Shown here: positions 9,259-54,824 of the stretch, in pieces
Numbering within the stretch: the stretch's first letter is position 1
Layout: every line of letters starts with the position of its first letter
Source of the DNA: Chrysoperla carnea
Taxonomy: Eukaryota; Arthropoda; Insecta; Neuroptera; Chrysopidae
DNA length: 64,000 nucleotides
Direction: 5' to 3'
NCBI RefSeq assembly: GCF_905475395.1
Contig: NC_058342.1
Location: 19,254,640-19,318,639 of the forward strand
Program-made: the position numbers and the translations under genes
The notes under the pieces: generated by a model
What the model saw: the letters and a program-made list of their open reading frames with translations, nothing else
Told to the model about the DNA's origin: nothing
The model's database searches: none

Positions 9259-9579
9259 TTAAGCTTTTAAGGTAAATATGACGTTTTCTTCCTCTCGCCA
9301 AAGATCCAAAAATTCATATTCTAGGCACTTTTTTCTGATAATATGACCCAAGAATTTGAGCTGACGAAATCTTAAAGTCTTTATTAGTTCACGGCCTGCA
9401 CCCGCTTCTTGTAAAACAAGTTTATTTGTTGGTCGTTGGGTCCCTGATATCCCCTTGGAGCGACGCAGGAACCACATTTCTGCCGCAGCTAATAGTTTTT
9501 CAACAGCAGTTGGCACTGTCCATGTTTCACATGCATATAATAAAACCGCGCTTAATAGGTGAGCAAATAGCGCTTGCAA
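9259..9579 (-). pseudogene. Non-LTR retrotransposon RT C-terminal fragment
   Basis: About 106 open codons without an initiating ATG. Key segments are LLYACETWTVPTAVEKL, AAAEMWFLRR, PTNKLVLQEAGAGRELI and RQLKFLGHIIRK. These match the region after the catalytic domain of RTE/Jockey-like non-LTR reverse transcriptases (general pattern LYxCETWT...EMWxxRR...RxLxxLGHxxR). The catalytic YxDD domain is absent, so this is an isolated, 5'-truncated fragment with no activity. It lies between two family F Helitron-like elements. No host gene is implied. Confidence 0.85.
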
Positions 9580-9875
9580 TAAAAGCCAAAAATATATGTT
9601 AACTTTGCTTAACTGAAAAGTTAAATTACTTTAGATCACACATTTTCATAACATGATTTATATTTACATGATATTGAGGTGTAGTTTTAGAATGTTGTGT
9701 CTCAGCGTATGTCTTAAGGTTATTTATGTCTTAAGGCTTATATTTTACATACCATGCCAAGTTTCAATTTGTTGTTTATTTCATTAGAAATATATTATGA
9801 ATCTTTAGTCTAAATTCCGCATAACATCTGTGTACAGAGTATGCTAAGTTGTCGCTTTTGACTTATACGAACGAA

Positions 9876-50930: not shown

Positions 50931-51825
50931 CAAGTGAAAACAAACAATTGACTGAGTTAATTGTTGAAATGCCATGTATAGAAAGTATTGATTACTCTGT
51001 CACATTACACAATTTACTTCCTAGTAATTTTTTTTAAATGTAACCTATTTTTTTCAAGCTAAATTCTCACTCTAACTTGGTTTTTTCTTATTACATTCAA
51101 CTTCCCTTAAGTACCAATTATTTCTTATCTTACCCACAATTCGAAAATTTGTTTCCGTTTCATTAAAAATTTACCGTACCAAAAATCATTCGTTCAAATC
51201 AAATTAAGGGCTCTAGTCTACGTCACAACTGAACCACAACGTCATCAACACTCTACACACTCTCCCTTGTCACATTTTTACATGTATTTTTCCTATACCA
51301 CATTTTAAATCTAATACGATTTCTTTAATGCTGAATAACATAGGTGTTTGATACCGTATTCTCATAGCTTAACTACTTAAATACATGTCACACATATATA
51401 ACTGATATTCCCATGTAATACATACTATAACATTTACGAATAATTTGCGCTCTCACGGGTAAACAGTCATGTTTACGAAAAAATGTTTCAAACAAAAGTT
51501 GTTTATTTTTTTTTAAAGAATATCTTTGACATTTCTTTTGTTCTATCTCTAACGGTTTACCCAATTGACTTATATTGCTCATTTACGAACTTGACCTCAC
51601 TCAGTACGTTATAAAAATTTCAGCTTGATATCTCTTTTCGTTTTTGAGTTATCGTGATGATAGACGGACAAACGACAGACGACTGACAGACAGATAGACA
51701 ACCGAAAATGGACTAATTAGGTGATTTTATGAACACCTATACAAAAATTTTGTTCATAGCATCAATATTTTTAAGCGTTACAAACTTGGAACTAAACTTA
51801 ATATGATATATTTCATATACATGGA
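50931..51825 (-). repeat. Family A repeat, copy 14, split by 370 bp
   Basis: 50931-51010 is the inverted 3' end (CAAGTGAAAACAAACAATTG to CTGTCACATTACAC). 51381-51825 resumes at ATACATGTCACACATATATA and runs to the 5' end. The intervening 51011-51380 is foreign. Confidence 0.85.
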
Positions 51826-52187
51826 TACGAACTTTGACTATTTTATACCTTTTCTATTACTTTTAATCAAATTTTAAGCGATTTTCTAAAATTTTTGGGA
51901 TAAAAATCTGTATTTCTTGTACTATTGGTTGTATCTTCTTTTCATAGATACATAAACGTACTATAAATATCTAGATAGATAACTTAAAAACATTATTTTA
52001 TTTTTGTAGCTCTGATACTTTTTGTAACTGTAAATCGTGTTTTGAATATATTTAAATATTAACAGCACACATATAGTACTAAAACCAGCTCTGATGGGAA
52101 AGGTCTTTGAGAGCTAGATCCATAATTTTCTGATAAATTATTTTATTTGTGGTTCAATTATTAAAGTAATCATGTTGATGAAAATAA
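51826..52187. other. Unassigned DNA upstream of the tRNA array
   Basis: Nothing recognised. Confidence 0.4.
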
Positions 52188-52226
52188 GCTCTAGTGGTGC
52201 AATTGGTTGGCGCTCGATACTTATAG
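52188..52226 (+). pseudogene. tRNA-Ile(UAU) 5' half, 3' half lost
   Basis: GCTCTAGTGGTGCAATTGG followed by a D-arm-like stretch and ACTTATA matches the first 38 nt of the intact genes with several changes (GTGC for GCGC, TCGATA for ACGGTA). The sequence then diverges just after the anticodon. It overlaps in content with the 3' fragment at 52863 (both carry the TAT anticodon), so these are two separate broken copies, not one gene split by an insertion. Confidence 0.75.
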
Positions 52227-52862
52227 GACATTTATAATAAATAAATTTCCTTGGGCAAAATTAAAAAGGAATGGGAAATTAATAAACCAAAGACAACAAT
52301 ACTCACATCAAGAGTAACCATCCTTTTAAAATAACGAAAGGAAACAGCTGTCCATAGGACGATTAAAGCACATAACACAAAATTTCTACAAAATGAATAT
52401 TCTCTAGTCGATCTATAATCTTTTTATTCAATGAAAATAATCAGCTAGATGACCTGATGAAAGGTTCATTTTTTTACTATCGTGGCGTTGAGATATTCAA
52501 AATATTCTCGGATAGGTTGTCGAATAAAGTTGGACTTTGCTTTGCTAGCCCTGACTAATTCTTATTTTATTGAAATTTTTGGAATTTACTGCCATTTGCA
52601 GCTAGCCAAGGTAGACCCATTTTTTTTATAATCTTAAAAAAAATCTAGAAAATGCTTCATTTTGCCTGCGTCCGACTTGAATTGGCAGACAAGAAAACAA
52701 ACTTAAATAGGGAATATTCACGAAATTTAAATTTGGTTCAAATATATTTAAATACTGTTAGCGCCGCACGCCGGGTGTTACCTAATATTTGTCGTGCTAC
52801 GAAACATATTACAAATGATGTATGTATAATTTGTACTGTTATTGATAAAATAAAGATTTTAT
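52227..52862. other. Unassigned DNA between broken tRNA copies
   Basis: No tRNA sequence and no clear element ends. Open frames at 52652-52926 partly overlap the tRNA fragment and are not genes. Confidence 0.5.
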
Positions 52863-52934
52863 AATGGTTAATGGTACTTATATGACAGTATGTGAGCAAT
52901 GCCGAGGTTGTGAGTTCGAGCCTCACCTAGAGCA
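52863..52934 (+). pseudogene. tRNA-Ile(UAU) 3' part, 5' end lost
   Basis: From the anticodon stem onward this matches the intact copies, including the TAT anticodon, the intron (one change, TATGTG for TATTTG), the T arm and the acceptor 3' strand CTAGAGCA. The 5' acceptor strand and much of the D arm are replaced by unrelated AT-rich sequence, so no acceptor stem can form. It sits about one array period upstream of copy 1 and has the same downstream flank, so it is the decayed next unit of the array. Confidence 0.85.
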
Positions 52935-52940
52935 TATTTT

Positions 52941-53166
52941 TTATTTAAATAGATAAAAAAATTTCAAGTTTACAAATTTATAAAATTTAAATAAATTATT
53001 ACAAGCTCTAGTGGCGCAATTGGTTAGCGCACGGTACTTATATGACAGTATTTGAGCAATGCCGAGGCTGTGAGTTCGAGCCGCACCTAGAGCATATTTT
53101 TTATTTAAATAGATAAAAATTTTCAAAAAGTTTACAAATTTATAAAATTTAAATCAGATATTACAA
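52941..53166 (+). repeat. Spacer of tRNA array unit
   Basis: The AT-rich spacers between tRNA copies are tandemly repeated with the genes. Each reads T-rich terminator, TTTAAATAGATAAAAA, AAGTTTACAAATT, AAATTTAAAT, TTATTACAA. Small indels make the first full period 162 bp and the next two 160 bp. Apparent minus-strand open frames across this region are products of the tRNA sequence and are not genes. Confidence 0.85.
53005..53094 (+). tRNA. tRNA-Ile(UAU), intron-containing, array copy 1
   Basis: This tRNA would decode AUA isoleucine codons. The 90-nt gene has a 7-bp acceptor stem (GCTCTAG/CTAGAGC) with discriminator A, a D stem GCGC/GCGC, an anticodon stem CGGTA/TGCCG and a loop CTTATA plus A with anticodon TAT. 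A 16-nt intron (53043-53058) lies after the base 3' of the anticodon, the standard eukaryotic position, so the mature tRNA is 74 nt. The internal A box (TGGCGCAATTGG) and B box (GTTCGAGCC) are present, and a T6 run just downstream suits Pol III termination. This copy differs from its neighbours: the T-stem 3' strand is CGCAC instead of CTCAC, which makes an A-G mismatch, and the variable loop has T to C. It may therefore be less stable than the other copies. Confidence 0.88.
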
Positions 53167-53256
53167 GCTCTAGTGGCGCAATTGGTTAGCGCACGGTACT
53201 TATATGACAGTATTTGAGCAATGCCGAGGTTGTGAGTTCGAGCCTCACCTAGAGCA
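53167..53256 (+). tRNA. tRNA-Ile(UAU), intron-containing, array copy 2
   Basis: Complete cloverleaf with anticodon TAT. The 16-nt intron is at 53205-53220, and acceptor, D, anticodon and T stems (GTGAG/CTCAC) are all paired. It starts 162 bp after copy 1. The flanks are shared with the other copies: a TTACAA leader just upstream and TATTTTTTATTTAAATAG just downstream, which contains a T6 Pol III terminator. Shared flanks show that the array grew by tandem duplication of gene plus flank, not by retroposition. Confidence 0.95.
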
Positions 53257-53326
53257 TATTTTTTATTTAAATAGATAAAAATTTTCCAAGTTTACAAATT
53301 TAAAAAATTTAAAACAGTTATTACAA

Positions 53327-53416
53327 GCTCTAGTGGCGCAATTGGTTAGCGCACGGTACTTATATGACAGTATTTGAGCAATGCCGAGGTTGTGAGTTCG
53401 AGCCTCACCTAGAGCA
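53327..53416 (+). tRNA. tRNA-Ile(UAU), intron-containing, array copy 3
   Basis: Identical in the tRNA body to copy 2 by eye, with the same 16-nt intron (53365-53380) and T6 terminator. It starts exactly 160 bp after copy 2. The AT-rich spacer is nearly identical too. Copies 2 and 3 are the best candidates for the functional consensus. Confidence 0.95.
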
Positions 53417-53486
53417 TATTTTTTATTTAAATAGATAAAAATTTTCCAAGTTTACAAATTAATAAAATTTAAATCAGTTATTACAA

Positions 53487-53576
53487 GCTCTAGTGGCGCA
53501 ATTGGTTAGCGCACGGTACTTATATGACAGTATTTGAGCAATGCCGGGGTTGTGAGTTCGAGCCTCACCTAGAGCA
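53487..53576 (+). tRNA. tRNA-Ile(UAU), intron-containing, array copy 4 (last)
   Basis: Complete cloverleaf with anticodon TAT and intron at 53525-53540, exactly 160 bp after copy 3. It differs from copies 2 and 3 by one A to G change just after the anticodon stem (TGCCGGGGTT), in the variable region, so pairing is unaffected. Its 3' flank departs from the repeat unit (ACATTTTTTTAAATT), but still has a T7 terminator. The array ends here; the following sequence is unrelated. Confidence 0.93.
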
Positions 53577-53894
53577 CATTTTTTTAAATTAAAATATTAA
53601 TTTAAAAAATTTAATCATCTTTGAGACAATCACACTTCACTGAAAAAACAAGTTCAAGTTCTGAAAAAATGTTTTCTTATCAAGCAATTTTCTTGTTTCA
53701 TGAAATATTTCTTATATTTAATTTTAAAGCTTTTTATTATTCAAAGTATGGAGATCTTTAACCAAAGAAATGTTTACTTGATTATTCGCCAATTAAATAC
53801 GTTTACATGAATTAATTATTTTTTAATATGAAACTTACAGGAAATTGCCCTTATACTCTAGGAGATGTATAACAGTGACTCAAATATCGATATT

Positions 53895-54430
53895 GGGAGT
53901 GTAAAGTGAGTAGTCTAGCCAACAAGTTTAAATTGGTGAAATATAGAGATACGGGTCGTAAAAATAAGTGTGATAGCTCATTGGATTCGGAATTATGTCT
54001 AGAAAAATGCGCCTGAAGCATTTTTTAGTAGGTACATAAAAAATTGCACCATTTATAAAAAATTAAAGATGAAAAAAAAAGATATTTCATTTTTCGTCAA
54101 TATTTCATAAAATATTAATATTTATGAAATTCTCAAAAAAGTAAACCTATCGTTATTATTTATAACTTTAATTTAACGCTGAAAATAGCGTCATTTTTAC
54201 ATTGTTGTTATACTGTAAAAAGACGAATATCTCACACTAAATAACATTTTTAAGGTATTAAATATTAATTTAAAAGTTTGAAAAAAATTGTGGTGGATTG
54301 TGAACACTCTTTTTATTACCGTTGGAAATTTATCTTAAAGTTAATTTTCAACAAGTTATACAATTCTTTATTAATAAAGTTTTCCTGAATTTTCGTTTTC
54401 ATTTTAAACTAAAAAATTTTTTTATAATTG
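53895..54430 (+). repeat. Family J repeat, copy 2
   Basis: Diverged copy of 49872-50395 immediately after the tRNA array (about 320 bp gap). Confidence 0.7.
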
Positions 54431-54472
54431 GCGTAAAATTTGTTGGCTTCGTGGAGCTCTTCATATATATAG

Positions 54473-54824
54473 GGACAATAAAATCCAATCCAGCGCTTCC
54501 AGTGAAAAATTTTGGCGATAAAGGAGGCTGTTATGACTAATTTGCAATTCTTTGCATGTTCATGTAATAAAAAATGTCAAATTAAAATCATTGAAAACAC
54601 TAATTAATTAAACTTTAATGCATTGAAAATTGTGAAAATAAGAAATCAAATATTATTTTTTCAAATGTAAATTATCATTATTATTATTATCAATTATTTA
54701 TTTAAATTTGTGAGGAAATAATATTAAATTTTCTATGTAAGTCATAAATGCAATATATACAATTCTATAATTGAAGTGTCGTTACCATGGAAACGCCTCC
54801 TATAAAACTCACACACGGTGCGAA
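54473..54824 (+). repeat. Family B repeat, copy 3
   Basis: GGGACAATAAAATCCAATCC, GGAGGCTGTTATGACTAATT, to CTCACACACGGTGCGAA, with GTTACCATGGAAAC at 54781-54794. The 5' end is truncated relative to copies 1 and 2. Confidence 0.83.

Follow-up and report, generated by a model that had tools for sequence, protein, structure and literature searches.

The tRNA-Ile(UAU) array in the window

The locus analyzed here raises the question whether its near-identical tRNA-Ile(UAU) genes form a true tandem array, how such an array would have arisen and whether it is unusual. In the window, which is the whole 64-kb stretch of DNA under analysis and corresponds to positions 19254640-19318639 of contig C6, ARAGORN identified four tRNAs in total, all of them Ile with the anticodon TAT and all on the + strand. 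They start at 53005, 53167, 53327 and 53487 with a spacing of 162, 160 and 160 bp, and TRF describes the same row (array A) by a period of 160 bp, 4.4 copies, 95% matches and a score of 1287. Both tools agree with a preliminary description of the locus, which had reported four genes on one strand at a period of 160-162 bp. Its statement that all four contain introns was confirmed as well: each gene carries an intron of 16 nt at position 37/38, and the mature form has 74 nt. The features of the locus and of a related array (array B) are as follows.

52188..52230, + strand: tRNA-Ile(UAU) pseudogene remnant consisting of a 5' fragment; repeat search (45 nt, 52186-52230, matching the array copies at 89%) and blastn
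52230..52596, strand not applicable: block F, non-tRNA sequence, 79% identical to the stretch directly downstream of array B (window-frame 97360-97747)
52873..52933, + strand: 3' half of a fifth tRNA-Ile(UAU) copy, its 5' part lost or unrecognisable; repeat search, genome DNA search and blastn
52934-53004, 53095-53166, 53257-53326 and 53417-53486, + strand: shared spacer of 70-72 nt, with a T-run near its start and ATTACAA at its end before the next gene
53005..53094, + strand: tRNA-Ile(UAU) gene a1; ARAGORN, covariance model 47.7 bits; 16-nt intron; T-stem mismatch A52·G62
53167..53256, + strand: tRNA-Ile(UAU) gene a2; ARAGORN, covariance model 55.8 bits; 16-nt intron; all stems paired
53327..53416, + strand: tRNA-Ile(UAU) gene a3; ARAGORN, covariance model 55.8 bits; sequence identical to a2
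53487..53576 (53577 in ARAGORN), + strand: tRNA-Ile(UAU) gene a4; ARAGORN, covariance model 53.6 bits; stems fully paired; G44; own 3' flank
C6:19351560, 19351716 and 19351871, strand not given: array B, three tRNA genes on the same contig (C6) as array A, whose end lies 43 kb upstream of the start of array B

At the gathering threshold, cmscan of the whole window listed three of the four array A genes (53.6-55.8 bits). A permissive run over 51500-54500 also listed the gene at 53005, and the RF00005 scores of all four (47.7, 55.8, 55.8 and 53.6 bits for a1 to a4) exceed the gathering cut-off of 29 bits. The anticodon UAU together with A73, the criterion for nuclear tRNA-Ile(UAU), was found in each gene, and a T-run starts 2 nt downstream of every one. 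Minimum free energy folding of single copies did not return the cloverleaf each time; the covariance model yields it for all. By direct pairing, the stems are complete in three genes, the exception being a1 with A52·G62. The earlier wording of four structurally complete genes therefore holds for a2, a3 and a4 and fails for a1. Judged from this T-stem mismatch, the copies of array A need not all be functional, and a1 may be either a weak gene or a pseudogene of recent origin. Adjacent genes of the same family within 1000 nt are regarded as a homogeneous tandem cluster, and here four such genes lie at 160-162 nt. A small row of duplicated intron-containing tRNA-Ile(UAU) genes is truly present, and it is ordinary rather than surprising.

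The array is shorter than first described. Instead of at 52188 it starts at about 52873, and the stretch 52188-53004 is made up of the 5' fragment, block F, the 3' half-copy and its spacer. The genes differ among themselves at 0-3 of 90 positions. The three spacers between the full genes differ from each other at 3-4 of 70 positions, and the spacer of the half-copy from the others at 6-7 of 70. Shared flanks had been proposed for all units; the units do have the spacer with its T-run in common, but the sequence that follows a4, the last gene, is unlike it.

Other sequences in the window were recorded as well. The stretch 51500-51838 is a dispersed repeat, represented on both strands of the 124 kb around the window by 44 aligned pieces, some of them parts of one copy, so that the copies are fewer. 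An open frame at 9259-9630 on the - strand matched no Pfam family at E<=1; in our view it resembles the C terminus of a LINE-type element. In five 5-kb contig-end stretches (both ends of C6 and a single end of C1, of C3 and of C5), neither strand contains three or more consecutive TTAGG or TCAGG units, an absence that would be compatible with a fly but is no proof of one.

Array B and its link to array A

The middle gene of array B (b2, C6:19351716-19351805) carries the anticodon UGU in an Ile body and is read by ARAGORN as Thr(TGT). It has a C2·A71 mismatch, C73 and a G49·U65 wobble pair, features by which it is most likely a copy in decay whose anticodon has changed. It is extremely improbable that this copy would still be transcribed and charged with Ile at a low level, with array turnover leading to occasional Ile-for-Thr misreading at ACA codons. 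Further tRNA-like debris lies upstream of array B (window-frame 96793-96874), and a spacer-like stretch upstream of the first gene, b1, differs from the array A spacers at 26-27 of 69-70 positions.

Block F is also common to both loci. Within the 124 kb compared by blastn it has one other place, the flank of array B, and it was absent from seven stretches around the dispersed tRNA-Ile loci (blastn, E<=1e-4). In the alignment of the two loci, parts of block F are more similar than the spacers are. Block F links the two array loci, probably by an older duplication. It contains an open stretch of 40 codons (52436-52555), for which no Pfam match above the curated cut-off was obtained (best DUF7458, E 0.041, 14.7 bits versus 27). 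The relative in the array B flank has an in-frame stop. With this stop and without a Pfam match above the cut-off, block F was dropped as a gene candidate and stays an unexplained flank.

Relatives of the array in the genome

A DNA search of the genome assembly (559 Mb, 337 contigs) gave at least 16 matches, i.e., 15 near-full-length genes plus the 3' half-copy that starts at 52873. The count of 15 comes from a single BLAST-type search that skips common words and is a lower bound, because the search missed the 5' fragment at 52188. Seven of the 15 genes lie on C6, in the two arrays 43 kb apart; four are on C3, two on C4 and two on C5. For comparison, the dispersed minus-strand genes C3a, C4a and C3d were turned to the sense orientation. 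Of 42156 first-look candidates in a genome-wide RF00005 search, only 63 were scored; its list includes none of the Ile genes, and it is no tRNA census.

ARAGORN assigns 14 of the 15 genes to Ile(TAT) and one to Thr(TGT). UAU and A73 occur together in 14, and 13 are Ile(UAU) genes with all stems paired, the exceptions by direct pairing being a1 (A52·G62) and b2 (C2·A71). This minor isoacceptor had been expected to be present in few copies, an expectation at odds with at least 15 near-full-length relatives, of which 13 have every stem paired. On copy number of Ile(UAU), the passages of PMC5372738 and PMC7884595 contain nothing.

All 15 genes have an intron at 37/38, with lengths of 16-21 nt: 16 nt in both arrays, versus 19-21 nt in six of the eight genes that lie dispersed. 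Six classes of mature sequence were distinguished. Three acceptor types were found among the 13 fully paired genes, namely GCTCTAG (8 genes), GCTCCAG (3) and TCCCCAG (2). Across the 15 genes, the acceptor-stem pairs 1:72, 3:70 and 5:68 are changed on both sides with pairing retained, and these compensated changes speak for selection on function. Two Ile(UAU) genes on C5, at 17524012 and 59717154, are identical although they lie 42 Mb apart; their acceptor stem, TCCCCAG/CTGGGGA, is remodelled and fully paired.

Origin of the array

Several observations bear on the history of the two arrays. Position 44 is A in a1, a2, a3 and the 3' half-copy and G in a4 and the 11 other near-full-length genes. 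The array A spacers differ from the two array B spacers at 11-20 of 65-66 positions. Genes are better conserved than spacers: when a1-a3 and b1-b2 are pooled, 90 of 393 spacer positions are different, compared with 25 of 540 gene positions. These figures combine six non-independent pairs; the defective a1 and b2 are part of the gene figure, and the diverged stretch upstream of b1 is omitted. In one chosen pair between the arrays, 18 of 65 spacer positions differ versus 0 of 90 in the gene (Fisher p=3e-8).

Array A is very probably a nuclear tRNA-Ile(UAU) tandem array that was built by repeated local duplication of a unit of gene and spacer. The preliminary description had proposed tandem amplification by unequal exchange, and the shared spacers, the half-copies, the A44/G44 split and the related array 43 kb away support this. 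Unequal crossing over or a similar exchange between copies would have multiplied the unit. In the simplest account, an older array locus, block F included, would have given rise to A and B by duplication or by a split. Array A would later have been re-amplified from an A44 unit, with exchange leaving half-copies behind. As far as sequence comparison can tell, the pattern is consistent with tandem duplication and birth-and-death turnover. As is general for eukaryotic tRNA genes, every unit would have a Pol III promoter inside the gene and a T-run as terminator. Each intact copy would be transcribed singly, trimmed, spliced at 37/38 and, when charged, would read AUA.

Extra copies could also have been kept for a high demand of AUA decoding in an A+T-rich genome, an adaptive reading that is compatible with duplication. 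The window has a G+C content of only 29.5%, and the 13 fully paired genes exceed the two Ile(UAU) genes of D. melanogaster. At both array loci, however, the presence of half-copies and of decayed copies resembles neutral turnover, and we consider selection for gene dosage rather unlikely.

It is very unlikely that the copies are mostly pseudogenes and represent a tRNA-derived SINE-like repeat. Such a repeat would fit the truncated pieces at 52188 (5' part) and 52873 (3' part) as well as a1 with its mismatch and the decayed copy of array B that reads UGU, but 13 of the 15 near-full-length copies are fully paired and have introns and T-runs. A SINE is expected to reach a far higher copy number than the 16 matches (a lower bound) in this 559-Mb genome. 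On copy number and paired structure, the repeat reading was rejected.

Short near-identical repeats are a recognised assembly risk and a2 and a3 are identical, but multiplication of one copy by the assembler is hardly credible, because the copies of array A differ both in genes, a1 and a4 each having their own substitutions, and in spacers, all four of which are distinct (3-7 of 70 positions). In addition, one long read exceeds the entire array in length.

Comparison with other tRNA arrays

The contig of array A also holds arrays of tRNA-Lys(UUU). In three sampled 10-kb stretches of C6:28785000-28847999, 31 tRNA-Lys(UUU) genes (7, 9 and 15) were found on both strands, many of the genes near 28.8 Mb being arranged in runs at a spacing of about 165 bp. 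Together with the precedents in flies, these arrays make array A not unusual. The tRNA-Ile(UAU) cluster had been called notable; it is real, but with tRNA-Lys(UUU) arrays at a similar spacing on the same contig this assessment is weakened. The UGU copy and the repeated amplification are minor curiosities. Within about 45 kb, the locus offers a clean small case of tRNA gene birth and death, with paired, half, mismatched and anticodon-shifted decayed copies. Wider importance would require that, among related species, copy number follow the use of AUA.

In drosophilids, pairs of tRNA genes are mostly homogeneous according to passages in PMC2888827, from which the cluster definition of one isoacceptor family within 1000 nt is also taken. 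Tandem tRNA arrays expand and contract between Drosophila species, and anticodon shifts are reported in this genus (both from an excerpt of PMC7919458); alloacceptor anticodon shifts are catalogued in a portion of PMC3923123. The middle copy of array B is like such shifts in that one anticodon base is changed (UAU to UGU) in a body like that of its neighbours. It differs from the catalogued cases by C2·A71 and by C73 in place of A73, and is probably a pseudogene. Drosophila tRNA-Ile-TAT-1-1 was detected by an intron probe (passage in PMC11402290).

More Ile(UAU) copies are present in the genome set than in D. melanogaster. Array A has the same isoacceptor throughout, the same strand and a spacing below 1 kb in common with the homogeneous tandem tRNA clusters of flies and other eukaryotes; the isoacceptor here is Ile(UAU), and otherwise no difference of kind from the fly clusters was seen. 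In the UAU anticodon, the 74-nt mature form and the intron at 37/38, its genes are like the intron-containing tRNA-Ile(UAU) genes of eukaryotes.
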